Shown here: positions 1,415 through 37,457 of the stretch, piece after piece
How positions within the stretch are numbered: position 1 is the stretch's first letter
How the letters are laid out: each line of letters opens with the position of its first letter
NCBI GenBank assembly: GCA_021199975.1
Contig: JAJQHF010000112.1
Span: 1 to 37,457, forward strand
Reading direction: 5' to 3'
DNA: 37,457 bases
Source: Candidatus Gastranaerophilales bacterium
GTDB lineage: Bacteria > Cyanobacteriota > Vampirovibrionia > Gastranaerophilales > Gastranaerophilaceae
Position numbers and translations under genes: made by a program
Notes under the pieces: generated by a model
The model's input: only the letters and a program-made list of their open reading frames with translations
Databases searched by the model: none
Told to the model about the DNA's origin: nothing

Positions 1415-1918
1415 TTACGCCCCCTTGCACGGGAAGAACTTCGCCGTACTGTTAGTAAATGTAATAACATCCCCTTTACTTACGAGGTATTGCATACGGT
1501 AAGAGTTACCATATTTATAGTGGTAATGATAGCCGACCTCAACCCCGTTAACTCTTAAATAAGCCGTAACACTGTTTGAGCCTTGACTTGATGCTGTACT
1601 CCAGCTGACCCACCCGTAAGAGGTTGCAGTCCAACCGCTTGATATATTTGTTGCGCTGCTGTATTTAGGTGCAATGTTAGCAAGTATTCCGCTTATTGCA
1701 CTACTAAGTGTGTCCGATATCTCGTCAAATTCCGTTTCAAGAGTTTCTATAGAGGTTGTATTAGCATCTATTTTATCCGTTAAAGAAGAAACATCAGCTT
1801 CAAGCGTACTTTCCAAAGCAGAAGTTTTAGTATTTAAAGTATCGAGAATATAATCGTTATTACCGTTAAGGTATTCCGCATAAATATTTTCGCCCTCTTC
1901 CCAGGTATGTAAAGCCAT
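1415..1918 (-). CDS. short tail fibre: coiled-coil stalk plus C-terminal beta domain
   Basis: 167 aa, first gene behind the phage promoter at 1947-1972, with a strong ribosome site (AAAGGGGG) before ATG 1918. Residues 1-20 hold an HTWEEGENIYAEYLN-type segment common at fibre N-termini. Residues about 25-80 form a heptad coiled coil. From about 90 to the end is a Trp/Tyr/Ser-rich beta domain (WTATSYGWVSWSTASSQGSN, GYHYHYKYGNSYRMQYLV), a likely jelly-roll or C1q-like tip. Such short fibres bind the host surface. The specificity cannot be told from sequence. Confidence 0.7.
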   Translation of the reverse strand: MALHTWEEGENIYAEYLNGNNDYILDTLNTKTSALESTLEADVSSLTDKIDANTTSIETLETEFDEISDTLSSAISGILANIAPKYSSATNISSGWTATSYGWVSWSTASSQGSNSVTAYLRVNGVEVGYHYHYKYGNSYRMQYLVSKGDVITFTNSTAKFFPCKGA

Positions 1919-1946
1919 TTTTAAATGCCCCCTTTGTTATAATATA

Positions 1947-1972
1947 ATTGTACCGGTTTTCAAAACGGGCAT
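1947..1972 (-). promoter_or_regulatory. phage-specific extended -10 promoter, copy A (fibre genes)
   Basis: On the minus strand the site reads ATGCCCGTTTT, then GAAAAC, CGG and the hexamer TACAAT. The same 26-position layout, without gaps, is found at 12618-12643, 24321-24346 and 33932-33957. It lies in the only sizeable gap between the large ejection protein and the fibre genes and points at the fibre gene. The centre CCCGTTTTgAAAACCGG is also a near-perfect dyad, so it could bind a regulator. A conventional TTGAAA/TATAAC pair overlaps it slightly downstream. Confidence 0.65.
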
Positions 1973-7398: not shown

Positions 7399-7775
7399 TT
7401 TTTACTTCTCCTTATATAAACTTCACTTGTATTATCGTTATCCAATTTTCTAAAACCTGCTTTTTTAAGTACCAATGCCGCATGCCTTAAGGGAGTAAAT
7501 GCAAACATATCTCTATTCTCAAACATATTGCATACTTTTATTATAGCTTGTATGTTATCGGGCATATTTTTACGTATACTCACACCTGAAAGAGTCATCA
7601 ATCCGTTTTCTTCCTGAACCGTAATAAAACCTCTCAGAAAGCCTTTTAATTCGTCATAAAAACAAAATAGGTTAGGATTATTAATTAAGAACTCAAAGTC
7701 GTAAGGACGGGGCATAGGGCGGCTCTCGTAGAGTTTTTTAAATTCTTCCAAATTGCGGCACCGGTCTAAAATCAT
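7353..7775 (-). CDS. DUF2824-like (P22 gp14-type) head assembly protein, tentative
   Basis: 140 aa. A GNAT-shaped fold can be made out: LFCFYDELKGFLRGFITVQEE as strands, then a helix (DNIQAIIKVCNMFENRDM), FTPLRHAALVLKKAGFRKLD, and EVYIRR at the end. The layout 'strand pair, helix, ...HAALVLKKAGF...' resembles small GNAT-like virion assembly proteins such as P22 gp14 (DUF2824), which lies next to the ejection genes in P22 too. It carries no obvious GxGxG acetyl-CoA loop, so catalysis is doubtful. The end overlaps the next gene by 46 bp. Confidence 0.55.
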   Translation of the reverse strand: MILDRCRNLEEFKKLYESRPMPRPYDFEFLINNPNLFCFYDELKGFLRGFITVQEENGLMTLSGVSIRKNMPDNIQAIIKVCNMFENRDMFAFTPLRHAALVLKKAGFRKLDNDNTSEVYIRRSKKWEALHQHQATQAQR

Positions 7776-12419: not shown

Positions 12420-12611
12420 CTACTTTCTTTTGTTTACTTCGTTTGGTATGGATTTAACCTTGTGTAATAATTCGCACATCCCCTTTATCTCACTTGCTTC
12501 TCTGTTTTTACAGGCATTCTCTGTTATATAATCACTCATATAGGTAATTAATAAACCGCCCTCTTTTAGTTCAAGGTAATTGCGTAATTTAACGAGATTT
12601 TCCATATCCAT
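12420..12611 (-). CDS. small protein before the scaffold gene, unknown
   Basis: 63 aa, mostly helical (MENLVKLRNYLELKEGGLLI, AKs absent), with two Cys and a basic C-terminus. It is the first gene behind promoter copy B: the -10 hexamer TACAAT (12623-12618) is only six bases before its ATG at 12611, and no ribosome site precedes it, so the message may be leaderless; an alternative ATG lies at 12605. It is 11 bp ahead of the scaffold gene. No family recognised; position suggests an assembly or regulatory role. Confidence 0.6.
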   Translation of the reverse strand: MDMENLVKLRNYLELKEGGLLITYMSDYITENACKNREASEIKGMCELLHKVKSIPNEVNKRK

Positions 12612-12617
12612 ATTATT

Positions 12618-12643
12618 ATTGTACCAGTTTTCAAAACGGGCAT
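12618..12643 (-). promoter_or_regulatory. phage-specific extended -10 promoter, copy B (scaffold/coat block)
   Basis: Minus strand: ATGCCCGTTTT, GAAAAC, TGG, TACAAT, that is, a textbook extended -10 (TGnTAcAAT) with the 11-base conserved core at fixed distance. It differs from copy A at one position only. It lies between the leftward scaffold/coat block and the rightward secreted-protein island (a TATAAT lies at about 12659 on the plus strand), so its CCCGTTTTgAAAACTGG dyad could influence both. Confidence 0.7.
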
Positions 12644-19320: not shown

Positions 19321-19581
19321 ATGTTTAAAACAATTACAAAAGAACAAGCAATTAAATTAACTATTTGGGAAAGGAAAAAACAAGCCTCTGATATTATAAA
19401 TTTTTTATTTAAAAATATTAAATATTTACAAAAAAAAGAAATAAAAAGAATGTTTAAAAGTCTTTACAACTTGGGCAGCATATTTATTGAACTTCCTGAC
19501 GATGACACAATTAGGATTTATTATGACGGAAGCGCTAAATTAATAAAGCCACGCCAGCTAAAATTATTTAAAGCGGCATAA
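19321..19581 (+). CDS. 86-aa basic protein, unknown
   Basis: ATG 19321, five bases after the previous stop, with AAAGGAATT as ribosome site. The first part is basic and helical (TIWERKKQASDIINFLFKNI, KKEIKRMFKSLYNLGS), and the end is beta-like (IFIELPDDDTIRIYYDGSAK). Second gene of the 19020 promoter unit. Its last 18 bases overlap the convergent gene 19564-19971. No family recognised. Confidence 0.6.
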   Translation: MFKTITKEQAIKLTIWERKKQASDIINFLFKNIKYLQKKEIKRMFKSLYNLGSIFIELPDDDTIRIYYDGSAKLIKPRQLKLFKAA

Positions 19582-19971
19582 CTTAACCTTTTTAAGCGCC
19601 TTTTTAATCGTTTTACCCTGTTTTAAGAGCCTTAAAAGCTTAATATGTAACTTTAATCTTTCCCCGATTGTTAAACGCTCCGAGCCTGTAATTTCCGCCT
19701 GATAATACCCTAAATTATCAAAATGGATTGTTAACCCGTTATAAAATAATCTCATATCCCCCAAATTAAGCCTTAATTGATTTTTAAATATAAAAAAGGC
19801 TATTTGTTCATAAATTAAATGAAGGGTTTTTATTCTGAAAATATGCGGTTGGTTGCATTTATAATTAATAATATTGCTAATAATTTTAGATTTTTTAGTT
19901 AGATAATGATAATTATTATCAATATTGTTAATAATAATGTCATCATCCATAATTAAACAATATCCCGCCAC
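19564..19971 (-). CDS. 135-aa protein, unknown, convergent
   Basis: GTG 19971 has an AAAGGTGG site; ATG 19950 is an alternative. The first half is Ile/Asn-rich (DDDIIINNIDNNYHYLTKKS), the second has ERLTIGERLKLHIKLLRLLK and a basic end (KTIKKALKKVKLCRFK). It overlaps the end of the convergent gene 19321-19581 by 18 bp. Possibly co-transcribed with the repressor gene upstream (20016-20663), 44 bp away. No family recognised. Confidence 0.55.
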   Translation of the reverse strand: MAGYCLIMDDDIIINNIDNNYHYLTKKSKIISNIINYKCNQPHIFRIKTLHLIYEQIAFFIFKNQLRLNLGDMRLFYNGLTIHFDNLGYYQAEITGSERLTIGERLKLHIKLLRLLKQGKTIKKALKKVKLCRFK

Positions 19972-20015: not shown

Positions 20016-20663
20016 TTAATCTAATTCAGATATATTTTTTATCATTCTTCCAATAATTTTAAAATCAATTTTTCTTAAATGCTCCTCATCAAAAAGAAAC
20101 GCTTCATATTCCTTTTTATTTGGTATCATAGTAATAGAGCCGTCTGTATTTTGTGTTATTCTGCAAACAAACAATAAAGTTTTTTTGTAAACTTCACTTT
20201 GTGTAATATACGCATAAACGCCGCTGATTAAAGCGTTTTTAACACTCGTGTCAATTAATAATAAATCACCGTTTTTTATAGGTGTTTCGCCTCCATCCAT
20301 ACAATCCCCGGGCATAGAAATTAATTTTAAAGTGTTCTCGTCTTTTATTTTCCAAACCTTGCGTACTAACTCTTTATCCAGCCATATACTTGTAATATGC
20401 GGGTTTTTAATAACTTTATTGTCCAGTTCTTCTATACCTGAATTATAATATTTAACTTCTATAGCGTCAGCGATGTTTAAACTGTATTTAAGGTTAACAT
20501 TATAAAATGTTTCCAGTTGGTGTATTTGTTCGTCATCAAGTTCTTTTTCTTTGTATTTTTGCAAGTATTGCCTTGATAAGTTCAAACACCGTCCCAAATC
20601 TGCAATGGAATAAATATTTTTTTTCTTTAAAGAAATTAAAAGCATAGCCTCTTGAATATTCAT
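20016..20663 (-). CDS. phage repressor with HTH and S24/LexA-type domain lacking the catalytic pair
   Basis: 215 aa from ATG 20663 (a TTG five codons upstream is closer to a GGGGG site). Residues 1-55 form an HTH (YSIADLGRCLNLSRQYLQKY). Residues about 90-215 match the second repressor (23312-24001) and the peptidase S24 fold: MPGDCMDGGE then IKNGDLLLID, and FVCRI. In active LexA/cI proteins the Cys121 position is Ser and the Cys167 position is Lys; here both are Cys, so RecA-stimulated self-cleavage is not expected. Likely a DNA-binding repressor for the promoter pair at 20703-20778. Two cysteines at the former catalytic positions might allow a disulphide. Confidence 0.8.
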   Translation of the reverse strand: MNIQEAMLLISLKKKNIYSIADLGRCLNLSRQYLQKYKEKELDDEQIHQLETFYNVNLKYSLNIADAIEVKYYNSGIEELDNKVIKNPHITSIWLDKELVRKVWKIKDENTLKLISMPGDCMDGGETPIKNGDLLLIDTSVKNALISGVYAYITQSEVYKKTLLFVCRITQNTDGSITMIPNKKEYEAFLFDEEHLRKIDFKIIGRMIKNISELD

Positions 20664-20702
20664 AATAATAATAAACAAACCCCCTTATCTTTATATTAAC
20701 GA

Positions 20703-21174: not shown

Positions 21175-21702
21175 ATGACAAAAGAGATTGAGAACAATTT
21201 AACAGAAATAAAAAATCTGATATATGTAATCAGAGGACAAAAAGTAATGCTGGATAGCGATTTAGCTATGTTATATCAAGTTGAAACAAAGGTATTAAAC
21301 CAAGCGGTAAAGCGTAATATTGAAAGATTTCCTAATGATTTTATGTTTCAATTATCAAAAGAAGAATTTGAAAACTTGAGGTCACAATTTGTGACCTCAC
21401 CCAAAGGCGGCGGCAGACAATATTTACCATACGTTTTTACAGAACAAGGAATAGCAATGCTTTCAGGTGTTTTAAAAAGTAAATGTGCTATTGAAATTAA
21501 CATACAAATAATGCGTACCTTTGTAAAATTAAGACAATGGGCAATAGAAAACAAAGAACTTGCGGAAAGATTAACGGAATTAGAACATTATTTTATGCGG
21601 CATTGTCAAGATAATAAAACAGATTTGCAAGAGATATACAAAGTATTAGCCTTGTTATCCGACCGCACAAGACCGCAAGAAATAGGCTTTAAAACAAAAT
21701 AA
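21175..21702 (+). CDS. ORF6N-domain protein
   Basis: 175 aa. Residues about 8-95 match the ORF6N domain found in phage antirepressor-type proteins: IKNLIYVIRGQKVMLDSDLA, MLYQVETKVLNQAVKRNIER, FPNDFMFQLSKEEF, then YLPYVFTEQGIAMLSGVLKS. A helical C-terminus follows (KELAERLTELEHYFMRHCQD). ORF6N proteins are DNA-binding and often counter repressors, though their target here is unknown. It is placed between the two repressor genes and reads rightward. Many bacteria carry chromosomal copies, so it may come from a host. Its end touches the first copy of the 36-bp repeat. Confidence 0.85.
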   Translation: MTKEIENNLTEIKNLIYVIRGQKVMLDSDLAMLYQVETKVLNQAVKRNIERFPNDFMFQLSKEEFENLRSQFVTSPKGGGRQYLPYVFTEQGIAMLSGVLKSKCAIEINIQIMRTFVKLRQWAIENKELAERLTELEHYFMRHCQDNKTDLQEIYKVLALLSDRTRPQEIGFKTK

Positions 21703-23311: not shown

Positions 23312-24001
23312 TTATACCCCTATAGACATATTCTTTAAAACCATACCTACAGGGTTAAACCTTAATTGCTGTAACTGGTCTTTAGTATAGATTATTTCAT
23401 CATATGAATTGTTCCAATAACACAGCTTTAAAGAGCCGTCGGGGCGGGGTTTTAGGATATTCACAAATATATAATTGCCGTCCATAGTGGTATAAGCATA
23501 AATGCCGGAGCGAAGCAGATTAACGGCGGATGTATCTATTATAAGTAAATCACCGTCTTTAATTGGGTTCTCGCCGCCGTCCATGGTATCCCCGGGCATT
23601 TTGAGGATACAGAGATTTTTTTCATCCGTTTTCCAAACGTTATGAATTAATTCTCTGTCAAGCCAAAAATTGGTAATGTCGGCACTCCTTATAGTGGTTG
23701 ACACTTTTGGGTCATCATAATACTTAATCTCAACGGCATCAGGATATTGAGCGGTTGCAACAAACGCTTTATCTGTTTTGTTAACCAACATCTCACCCTT
23801 GCCGGTCATTAACCAATTAAGGTTAATGTTAGTATTTTCACATAACTTAACATAAAATTTGCTTGCAGGCTCATTAACACCGCACTCATATTTAGTTAAT
23901 TGCTGCTGTCTAATGCCTACCATTTCAGCAAATTCAGTCTGTTTTAACTTTAAATAAATTCTGAATAATTTAATTCTATCACTAACATTTTCTTCTTTCA
24001 T
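23312..24001 (-). CDS. cI-type repressor with S24-like domain lacking the catalytic pair
   Basis: 229 aa. Residues 1-70 are an HTH_3 domain (DRIKLFRIYLKLKQTEFAEM, VGIRQQQLTKYECGVNEPA). Residues about 88-229 are homologous to the C-terminal domain of the repressor at 20016-20663: FWLDRELIHNVWK, MPGDTMDGGENPIKDGDLLI, YIFVNILKPRPDG. In the S24 family the position of Thr139 is the Ser nucleophile and that of Asn181 is the Lys base; both are replaced, so self-cleavage is not expected. Reads leftward away from the consensus promoter at 24035, which it probably represses, the position of a lambda cI. Confidence 0.85.
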   Translation of the reverse strand: MKEENVSDRIKLFRIYLKLKQTEFAEMVGIRQQQLTKYECGVNEPASKFYVKLCENTNINLNWLMTGKGEMLVNKTDKAFVATAQYPDAVEIKYYDDPKVSTTIRSADITNFWLDRELIHNVWKTDEKNLCILKMPGDTMDGGENPIKDGDLLIIDTSAVNLLRSGIYAYTTMDGNYIFVNILKPRPDGSLKLCYWNNSYDEIIYTKDQLQQLRFNPVGMVLKNMSIGV

Positions 24002-24034: not shown

Positions 24035-24063
24035 TTGACAGATACTCTTATTAATTGTATAAT
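24035..24063 (+). promoter_or_regulatory. perfect consensus early promoter (PR-like)
   Basis: TTGACA, exactly 17 bases, TATAAT. It starts 34 bp from the repressor start codon and points the other way, into the early operon. This is the classic PR arrangement next to a cI gene. Confidence 0.8.
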
Positions 24064-24320: not shown

Positions 24321-24346
24321 ATGCCCGTTTTCAAAAATGCAATAAT
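24321..24346 (+). promoter_or_regulatory. phage-specific extended -10 promoter, copy C (rightward)
   Basis: Plus strand: ATGCCCGTTTT, CAAAAA, TGC, AATAAT. It shares the 11-base core and spacing with the three leftward copies, but the -10 hexamer is weaker. It lies in the 137-bp gap ahead of the membrane protein gene at 24384. It is the only copy on the rightward strand. Confidence 0.55.
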
Positions 24347-24383: not shown

Positions 24384-24725
24384 ATGACACAATTAGAAAG
24401 CTTTGCACTGTTAATATTAGTCGGATGTATAGCCTACGCTTTAACTTGTATGTTTGATTATTTAAACCGTTGCAAAGTCAATTACAGCCATAAAATCAAA
24501 AACCTTGAACACAAAAGAGATGATTTGTTTAAATTCAAGTGTAAAAAACTTCACAATAATATGTTCTTTTATTACTGGGATTTAATCAAAACCAAGCCCG
24601 AATTGTTATGTTACGACTTAGCAAGCAGGGATTTAAGCAGGGTGATAAAAGATAACAAGGTGTCATATTTTTATGACATCATCAAACAAAGAAACAACAA
24701 AACAACAAAAAAGGCGGCGATGTAA
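24384..24725 (+). CDS. single-span membrane protein, unknown
   Basis: 113 aa from ATG 24384 (AAAGGA site). The frame is open upstream as far as 24243, but that part overlaps promoter C and lacks a ribosome site. One transmembrane segment near the N-terminus (SFALLILVGCIAYALTCMF), then a basic, His/Lys-rich cytoplasmic part (CKVNYSHKIKNLEHKRDDLF) with DLIKTKPELLCYDLASRDLS. No family recognised. Preceded by promoter C, so it may be expressed late as well as early. Confidence 0.55.
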   Translation: MTQLESFALLILVGCIAYALTCMFDYLNRCKVNYSHKIKNLEHKRDDLFKFKCKKLHNNMFFYYWDLIKTKPELLCYDLASRDLSRVIKDNKVSYFYDIIKQRNNKTTKKAAM

Positions 24726-32925: not shown

Positions 32926-33363
32926 TCACTCTACGGAATTACGCAAAAACAATTCTTTTTCTGCTTTTCTTCTTGCAATAAGCCCCTCAAGTTTAACACC
33001 TTTTGAATATATCCACAAATCAAACTGACCTGCCGCTAAAGGGAAATGCTTATTATTAATGAATTTTAGCATTGTAGATTTTCTAAACGCAACCGAACCT
33101 ACATTGTATATAAAGCTTACAAGTGCATCAAATTGGTTTTGATTTAATTCGACTTTTACATATTTTTCAATTGCATTTTCAGCCGTTTTAACATCCTGTT
33201 TTAGCCAGTTTGTAGCTTGTTCCTTTGTACATGTATCAGTGCTTAACACTCCTGATGTATGACCGTAACCTATAGTCCAAACTCCTGCAGGGCATTTATA
33301 AGCTTTTGTTTTTAATCCCTCGAATTTCTTTATTAAATTTATTCCGTTGTCTGATGTTTTCAT
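32926..33363 (-). CDS. endolysin, GH24 lysozyme (P21 type)
   Basis: 145 aa. The T4/P21 lysozyme motif is clear: E15 (IKKFEGLK), C24 (KCPAGVW) and T30 (WTIGYGHT), that is E-8-C-5-T, the arrangement seen in P21-type enzymes where Cys stands for the Asp of T4 lysozyme. Later come LNQNQFDALVSFIYNVG and LIARRKAEKELFL, also typical. It cuts the MurNAc-GlcNAc bond of peptidoglycan. There is no signal or anchor sequence, so release needs a holin; two small membrane proteins are encoded just upstream. Last gene of the late operon. Confidence 0.95.
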   Translation of the reverse strand: MKTSDNGINLIKKFEGLKTKAYKCPAGVWTIGYGHTSGVLSTDTCTKEQATNWLKQDVKTAENAIEKYVKVELNQNQFDALVSFIYNVGSVAFRKSTMLKFINNKHFPLAAGQFDLWIYSKGVKLEGLIARRKAEKELFLRNSVE

Positions 33364-33379
33364 TTCTCGTCTTTTCTTT

Positions 33380-33649
33380 TTAATTGTTACTGCTGTTTTT
33401 TGTTACAATGGTTATTAACAGATTTTTAACATCTGCTATATCTTGGCGCATTTGCGTTAAATCTTCCTGCAATGACTTATGATTATCCGCATAAATATCT
33501 TTTGACAGATAATTTTTAGCAACATATTCAAGCATTTCAGCCTTTAGGCTTAAAAGTTCACTGGAGCGTGCAAATACTCCTATTTGGATTAATAAAGTTA
33601 TTACAAACACCGCACACGGTGCGAATACAATTATATTATTCATTTCCAT
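33380..33649 (-). CDS. small membrane protein of the lysis cassette (holin/spanin-like)
   Basis: 89 aa. One N-terminal hydrophobic segment (IIVFAPCAVFVITLLIQIGV, about 5-25), then a long helical domain (ELLSLKAEMLEYVAKNYLSK, LQEDLTQMRQDIADVKNLLI) with coiled-coil spacing. An N-terminal anchor plus a periplasmic coiled coil is the build of inner-membrane spanin subunits, but also of some small holins. It is 16 bp upstream of the lysozyme gene and overlaps the next membrane-protein gene by 14 bp. No lipoprotein partner is seen. Confidence 0.6.
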   Translation of the reverse strand: MEMNNIIVFAPCAVFVITLLIQIGVFARSSELLSLKAEMLEYVAKNYLSKDIYADNHKSLQEDLTQMRQDIADVKNLLITIVTKNSSNN

Positions 33650-33884
33650 TTTTATTATTTTCGACGTTTTCTTTTATTAGATAGTTGTTAAGAAAATTAG
33701 AAATTTCACAAAAACAACCGTTCATTTTCATAATTTCTTTGTTTATCTCGTGAATTTCCATATTATTCTCAACATTTTGTTTTTTTAAAATACTCATTTT
33801 AGTTAACCATTTTAAAAATAAGAAATAGATTAAAATAAAATTAATTGAGGTAAATAAAAAGTTAAAAAAATCAAGATCAAACAT
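33636..33884 (-). CDS. small membrane protein of the lysis cassette (holin candidate)
   Basis: 82 aa. One hydrophobic segment (FFNFLFTSINFILIYFLFLK) followed by a polar, Asn/Glu-rich part with two Cys (MNGCFCEIS). First gene behind promoter copy D, then the second membrane protein and the lysozyme: a compact lysis cassette. A class III-like single-span holin is possible; the family is not recognised. Confidence 0.55.
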   Translation of the reverse strand: MFDLDFFNFLFTSINFILIYFLFLKWLTKMSILKKQNVENNMEIHEINKEIMKMNGCFCEISNFLNNYLIKENVENNKNGNE

Positions 33885-33931: not shown

Positions 33932-33957
33932 ATTTTATCACGTCTTAAAACGGGCAT
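33932..33957 (-). promoter_or_regulatory. phage-specific extended -10 promoter, copy D (lysis cassette)
   Basis: Minus strand ATGCCCGTTTT, AAGACG, TGA, TAAAAT: the conserved core with a full extended -10 (TGnTAaAAT) at the same spacing as copies A-C. It sits in the 137-bp gap between the 149-aa gene and the lysis genes and points at the holin candidate. Confidence 0.65.
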
Positions 33958-36504: not shown

Positions 36505-36735
36505 TCATTCAATCAAATTTTTATAAGTATTTTCCACCTTAGCTAATGCAACATTCTTTTTATTATGATATGCGGATTTTGAAATGTTTAATTTTGCACA
36601 AATATTTTCAACCATTCTCTTATAAATAAAAGTATATTTTAAAAGCCAATATTCCTCCTCAGTAAGGAAAGATTTTTTAAATAAATTTTCTAATTCTATG
36701 TTATTTAAAGCTTTTAAATACGCTTTTATATTCAT
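36505..36735 (-). CDS. 76-aa helical protein with sigma-region-4-like HTH
   Basis: The second half, FLTEEEYWLLKYTFIYKRMV, ENICAKLNISKSAYHNKKNV and ALAKVENTY, reads like region 4 of a sigma factor or a small transcription activator: a helix, then a turn, then a recognition helix. It is the only obvious DNA-binding protein in the late leftward region and therefore a candidate for recognising the promoter family (copies A-D). It follows the DUF1353 gene by four bases. Confidence 0.55.
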   Translation of the reverse strand: MNIKAYLKALNNIELENLFKKSFLTEEEYWLLKYTFIYKRMVENICAKLNISKSAYHNKKNVALAKVENTYKNLIE

Positions 36736-37224: not shown

Positions 37225-37457
37225 CTACCCTGCAATCCCTGACAAATCAAGCGTATATTGGAAAGTTTTTGTTTCGTTAGGTGCTATGGTAACGGGGGTT
37301 ATAAGGCTACGGGCTATGAGAGTGTGATTATAATAATAAGAAGAAGTAGTAGAACTATAACCGGTAACAACCCCGATTTCTGATACTGTTAAATTTTCAT
37401 CCGATATATTAGCTATGGAAGCTGTTATAACTTTTGTTAAATTGTCTGCAACAGAAG
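37225..37457 (-). CDS. virion fibre/tail-associated protein, C-terminal part (gene crosses the circle join)
   Basis: Same gene as at 1-377. On the circle the frame passes from base 1 to base 37402 as codon TCG and runs to TAG at 37225-37227; bases 37403-37457 repeat 1-55. This part ends in a beta domain (EIGVVTGYSSTTSSYYYNHT, RSLITPVTIAPNETKTFQYT, LDLSGIAG), typical of a virion tip or interaction domain. Confidence 0.8.
   Translation of the reverse strand, partial: SVADNLTKVITASIANISDENLTVSEIGVVTGYSSTTSSYYYNHTLIARSLITPVTIAPNETKTFQYTLDLSGIAG
37403..37457. repeat. terminal direct repeat (assembly overlap, copy 2)
   Basis: Identical to 1-55. See copy 1. The sequence continues smoothly over the join, so it is not a true terminal repeat flanked by different genes. 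Confidence 0.95.

Follow-up and report, generated by a model that had tools for sequence, protein, structure and literature searches.

Several phage systems offer points of comparison for the promoters described here. In middle promoters of bacteriophage T4, the MotA box lies 12 ± 1 bp from the -10 hexamer and substitutes for the -35 element, and TGn is present in about half of these promoters (PMC2988021). The late regulators RinA, Ltr and ArpU of Gram-positive phages are associated with repeats upstream of -42 at one late promoter, which yields one transcript; in phage 13, these repeats extend from -107 to -42 (PMC13123087). In the T4 genes e, soc, 49 and I-TevI, the late promoter is located within a hairpin, in its 5' arm, and this hairpin masks the Shine-Dalgarno (SD) sequence in RNA initiated upstream (PMC3014915, PMC2988022).

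The stretch of DNA analyzed here, referred to as the window, comprises 37,457 nucleotides and is one whole contig (C24) of a 285-contig, 1.95-Mb assembly. A 55-bp terminal direct repeat (1-55 and 37403-37457) indicates that the phage genome is probably circular and complete, with a length of 37,402 bp. The assembly contains no 16S sequence, and similarity to named alphaproteobacterial terminases is only 28-30%. The window carries the genes of a temperate tailed phage, with a terminase, a portal-type adaptor, a major capsid protein, an SU10-type adaptor and an endolysin, together with CI-like repressors, an anti-repressor, an integrase and an Erf-like annealing protein. Two CI/S24-like repressor genes (20016-20678 and 23312-24001, both on the minus strand) occur together with the anti-repressor gene (21175-21702, plus strand) in this one temperate phage.

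The first-pass annotation of the window had described four 26-bp copies of a phage-specific late promoter with a -10 hexamer. All four copies were recovered with the positions and strands listed below, and both the sequence and its comparison with other phages supported a family of this kind. Each copy contains a TATAAT-like hexamer 9 nt downstream of the element and has a gene ahead of it.

1947-1972, minus strand: site A; element ATGCCCGTTTT at 1962-1972, GCCCGTTTT, then a 9-nt gap and -10 TACAAT at 1947-1952; leader with SD
1415-1918, minus strand: tail/fibre-type protein from the open reading frame list, predicted to be driven by site A; homologues sit behind class A sites
12618-12643, minus strand: site B; element at 12633-12643, TGG, -10 TACAAT at 12618-12623
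12420-12611, minus strand: 63-aa protein, first gene of the scaffold/capsid block; no SD, predicted leaderless mRNA
24321-24346, plus strand: site C; element at 24321-24331, TGC, -10 AATAAT
24384-24725, plus strand: membrane protein of 113 aa, predicted to be driven by site C
33932-33957, minus strand: site D; element at 33947-33957, TGA, -10 TAAAAT
32926-33884, minus strand: lysis cassette, predicted to be driven by site D, with genes at 33636-33884 and 33380-33649 and the endolysin gene at 32926-33363 (PHROG endolysin match, E value of 2e-65)

The exact element ATGCCCGTTTT was present in four copies on the two strands of the window, compared to 0.03 expected, and none of 100 shuffles reached four. 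Copies with two mismatches numbered 17 in the window, compared to 16.9 expected; this chance-level count indicates that there is no cloud of half-matches within genes. With a 26-bp weight matrix, the four sites scored 23 to 33 and the rest of the window below 12, and Markov shuffles of the window gave a mean of 0.03 sites at the weight-matrix cut-off of 19. The four sites are very probably promoters. Site C does point into a membrane protein gene, as annotated, but this gene belongs to a rightward early-side cluster and not to a late block. A partial look-alike, ATGCCCGATAACATACAAGCTATAAT at 7540-7565 (minus strand), recurs in a conserved coding region of loci L011, L126 and L171, which probably reflects conservation at the protein level.

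The proposed extended -10 was found in three of the four copies as TGn, whereas copy A has CG. As annotated, a sigma-70 -35 is lacking, the best -35 match reaching at most 3/6 at every SD-type site, and the element fills the MotA-like zone in place of the -35. The family resembles T4 middle promoters (MotA box, AsiA and sigma appropriation; PMC2988021, PMC6755090) in its host-type -10 without a -35, in the presence of TGn in a fraction of the promoters and in a phage box in the -35/-22 zone; TGC takes up about the MotA-box positions if the MotA gap is taken as 12 bp. Unlike the T4 box, WWWTGCTTtA, the box here is WTGCCCGWTTT with a 9- to 10-bp gap, and unlike T4 middle promoters, the family appears to serve late genes. 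The likeness is one of geometry and not of membership. No homologue of MotA or Mu C, the activators to which the first-pass annotation had compared the system, was seen, and Pfam and PHROG matches to MotA or AsiA were absent among the window proteins scanned (the proteins X and Y described below included, not every short open reading frame).

Relatives were collected via terminase and capsid. Their designations correspond to the following loci: P104, L118 and L119; P059, L101 and L102; P009, L009; P132, L157 and L158; P182, L159 and L160; P397, L161 and L162; P398, L163; P399, L164 and L165; P395, L166; P396, L122; P171, L171; and P173, L173. Some 20 further phage contigs carry the element at the corresponding gene boundaries with unchanged spacing, as WTGCCCGWTTT or, in one lineage, as TGTCCGWTTT. 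The consensus across 18 phages is WTGCCCGWTTT-N9-TAtaaT. In these 18 phages, a -10 matching at least 4/6 positions was located at spacing 9 in 29 of the 32 intergenic exact G[CT]CCG[AT]TTT cores and at spacing 10 in the other 3. A further 14 cores were flagged as coding, 5 of which are real start-proximal sites in over-extended open reading frames; the remaining 9 have no -10 at this spacing. Equally good matches inside genes, named in the first-pass annotation as an observation that would speak against the family, were therefore not found among the 18 phages. The idea that each phage has its own GTTT or GATT variant was dropped because both are used by P059, P132 and P397.

The positions of the sites are conserved as well. 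Site A counterparts precede the same tail/fibre gene in P104, P059, P132, P182, P397, P398, P399, L171 and L173, and site B is kept in every relative having the 63-aa gene with its upstream gap. Counterparts of site D, with a 10-nt gap and leaderless, precede the same lysis-side genes in P132, P399 and P171. A counterpart of site C was looked for in the relatives and none was seen. An additional site is present in the terminase-portal gap of P104, P059, P009, P132 and P182.

Two small proteins co-occur with the promoter:

36505-36735, minus strand: Y, a 76-aa basic protein with DUF1492/ArpU-type similarity and a stand-alone sigma-region-4-like fold; candidate specificity factor
19564-19971, minus strand: X, a second candidate specificity factor; small, basic, with no family match, its gene located to the upstream side of terS

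The sites were also found together with one or both of these proteins in other phage types. The contractile-tail phage L177, whose virion genes are unrelated, contains four sites and a module that includes Y. X and Y are both encoded by the contractile-tail phages G408 and G410, in which the variant TGTCCG[AT]TTT, with unchanged spacing, precedes portal and scaffold; G408 has a further copy ahead of a tail gene, so the variant sites number three in G408 and two in G410. This coordinated variant suggests a co-evolving phage factor. A repeated-element search confined to the L182 and L185 loci gave nothing; the TGTCCG sites emerged from a whole-record search. No site at or above the cut-off was detected in 70 control loci (704 kb) without X and Y. 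Phages sharing only the g34022 module, without X and Y, have zero sites, and an association with the whole module was dropped for this reason. Host-genome loci with a more distantly related terminase (G047, G039, G002 and G003:C28) likewise contain zero sites. The association was put to a forward test by scanning with X only; the single new contig returned, L199, has a terminase of just 25% identity and bears two sites.

These results are consistent with late promoters of one family, probably used by a host sigma factor together with a phage factor at about -22 to -31. Host RNA polymerase with the main sigma factor would read the TATAAT-like -10, often extended by TGn, and a phage-encoded factor would bind WTGCCCGWTTT at about -31 to -22, replacing the -35 contact. 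Such a factor would switch on the packaging/portal, capsid, tail/fibre and lysis genes and a few moron genes together. The likeliest candidates are Y, a free-standing sigma-region-4-like domain, and X, the small basic protein whose gene precedes terS, acting singly or together.

An unlikely alternative is that the reader of the box comes from the host, as a regulator or an alternative sigma factor, and is exploited by the phages. This reading would account for the conservation of the box although no early-region phage protein common to all carriers was found, and for its occurrence across phage types infecting related hosts. The exact box-plus-hexamer pattern outside phage loci was, however, as rare as chance in five host genomes, which reveals no such regulon; control phages and conserved capsid loci of the same host family are without the box, and the coordinated TGTCCG variant in one phage lineage also argues against a host reader. 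The match in G003:C4 was rejected as a host gene, being a remnant of an L177-like phage. The reader of the promoters is quite probably encoded by the phage.

The main non-structural candidates common to the carriers of the box are X and Y, alongside CI-like repressors and lysis genes, and the chance that X or Y is the phage-encoded reader is slightly better than even. Y had been put forward in the first-pass annotation, and its co-occurrence with the promoter and predicted sigma-region-4 fold bear this out. The RHH-like protein at 24055, also put forward, has no homologue that was found in the relatives, and X, which is associated equally well, was missed. Y matches DUF1492 with 26.3 bits, just above the cut-off of 21.5, and also matches PHROG transcription regulators. 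Its AlphaFold model has a pLDDT of 93, and the model matches obtained with Foldseek are mostly sigma -35-binding domains (TM of 0.6 to 0.7, with E values of only about 0.03 to 0.1). The recognition helix of Y is poorly conserved, whereas the box is conserved, which counts against Y. The box is absent from L189, which has a divergent Y, and the location of the Y gene within the late region is an odd position for an initiator of late transcription. X is a neighbor of terS in most relatives and lies 2.8 kb from terS in the window. Its structure model is of moderate confidence, with no fold match and no detectable DNA-binding fold, and L011 contains X and zero sites in its 8.4 kb. Sites just upstream of Y in P398 and upstream of X in P132 and P182 would allow positive feedback.

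A full phage sigma factor that recognizes both the box and the -10 would fit the resemblance of Y to sigma region 4 and the lack of a sigma-70 -35. It is nevertheless very improbable: the hexamer has the usual sigma-70 form, TAtaaT with TGn; Y amounts to one domain of region-4 size, with no region-2 protein among the shared genes; and the distance of 9 to 10 bp between the box and the -10 is shorter than a normal sigma spacer. A combination of host sigma and phage factor may have in common with the RinA/Ltr/ArpU regulators (PMC13123087) a small, basic regulator whose gene precedes terS, in the form of X, and a sequence relationship, in view of the DUF1492/ArpU-type similarity of Y. It differs in having one box at -31/-22 next to the -10 and three or more promoters per phage, up to four.

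The promoters fall into two designs, and the predicted translational side of both, leaderless starts and SD-occluding hairpins in read-through RNA, was missed in the first-pass annotation. In the leaderless class, the start codon lies 6 nt past the hexamer in nearly all cases (7 nt in P182; ATT in L103). The ATG of the 63-aa gene is positioned exactly 6 nt past the site B hexamer, and the relatives keep this spacing. TGn is present in 13/13 leaderless sites versus 2/13 SD-class sites. In L177, G408 and G410, the same position, as read from the sequence, opens a mini-ORF of 5 to 7 codons ahead of the scaffold gene. These leaderless mini-ORFs, MRYSRSK and MLLEQ (L177:332-430; L192/L194, corresponding to G408/G410), replace the 63-aa gene and are possible translational primers.

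In the SD-type class, the promoter itself can pair with the SD. The corresponding feature at site A is as follows:

1925-1935, minus strand: SD region of site A, AAAGGGGGCAT; in read-through RNA, base pairing is possible between its GGGCAT and the ATGCCC at 1967-1972 in site A

Folding of the site A SD region gave -14.0 versus -4.6 kcal/mol and a probability of an open SD of 0.17 versus 0.41. At many SD-type sites of the short-tailed phages, the surroundings of the -10 (e.g., AAACCTCTATAAT) show complementarity to the SD (AGAGGT), and the arms vary from one site to another. For 11 sites, the promoter/SD duplex had a mean energy of -10.4 kcal/mol; the mean for 268 control genes was -4.8 kcal/mol (p 3e-6). 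In read-through RNA, the SD was less accessible than in controls (p 0.001), and the accessibility gain upon local initiation was larger than in controls, reaching alone only p 0.01. L199, which was not selected by promoter, provided a perfect case of SD pairing (CTCCTATA/TATAGGAG). SD occlusion was weak or absent at P182 A, L177 16164, G410 and site C of the window. The weak hairpin signal in contractile-tail phages suggests that this feature may characterize the short-tailed lineage. Translation would thereby depend on the local start, either through a leaderless start or through occlusion of the SD by the -10 region in read-through RNA, and both designs would confine translation to locally started RNA. 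We consider the chances that such translational gating is a real effect to be about even. Like the T4 SD-occluding hairpins, these are arrangements with a promoter in the 5' arm of an SD-pairing hairpin, here by prediction; unlike in T4, many late promoters within one lineage are predicted to have them, with site-specific arms and leaderless sites alongside.

The least probable reading is that the element is a repressor operator or an RNA hairpin element and not an activator box: the dyad in copies A and B and the hairpins of SD-type sites in read-through RNA fit it, but the dyad is not conserved, the hairpin arms vary by site and lie mostly outside the box, and the fixed spacing from box to -10 is as expected for polymerase contact. 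The dyad CCCGTTTTnAAAACnGG noted in the first-pass annotation does exist in copies A and B; owing to its lack of conservation in relatives, it is unsupported as a binding site, and the idea of an operator was rejected. A near-perfect dyad, CCCGTTTTGAAAACnGG, common to 1947-1972 and 12618-12643, was not seen in site C, site D or the relatives. A half-terminator (GCCCG with a T run) was also discarded, as the window sites have no upstream complementary arm. The hairpin in the terL-portal gap of P059, followed by TTTTT, could also terminate transcription; most sites are without such a feature.

For the activator box read with host sigma, a broader formulation is possible but rather doubtful as a whole: unrelated short- and contractile-tailed phages would have a late regulon in common, in which host polymerase would be redirected to a box near -27 by the stand-alone sigma-region-4-like protein together with X, and the promoters would generally be built, with a leaderless start or a -10 complementary to the SD, so that only locally started RNA can be translated. 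With this analysis, late transcription can be defined at the sequence level in phages of an uncultured gut bacterial lineage, for which a literature search turned up no regulatory biology, and X and Y are named as two small proteins for testing. The analysis also points to a free sigma-region-4-like domain that may serve as a promoter-specificity factor, and it suggests that the coupling of transcription start and translation, known for a few T4 genes, may be a general design of a late regulon.

Two observations concern phage-derived loci in host genomes. Loci L132-L151 represent a distant capsid homologue that occurs once per genome, without the promoter, in nearly every near-complete genome of many host-family genera; the window's own genus is without it and has one distant terminase per genome. 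These one-per-genome capsid homologues possibly belong to a domesticated, gene-transfer-agent-like head cluster. In a genome of the same genus, the promoter survives in the prophage remnant L116/L117 (G003:C4, at about 43000), together with a scaffold-like fragment and a duplicated mini-ORF.
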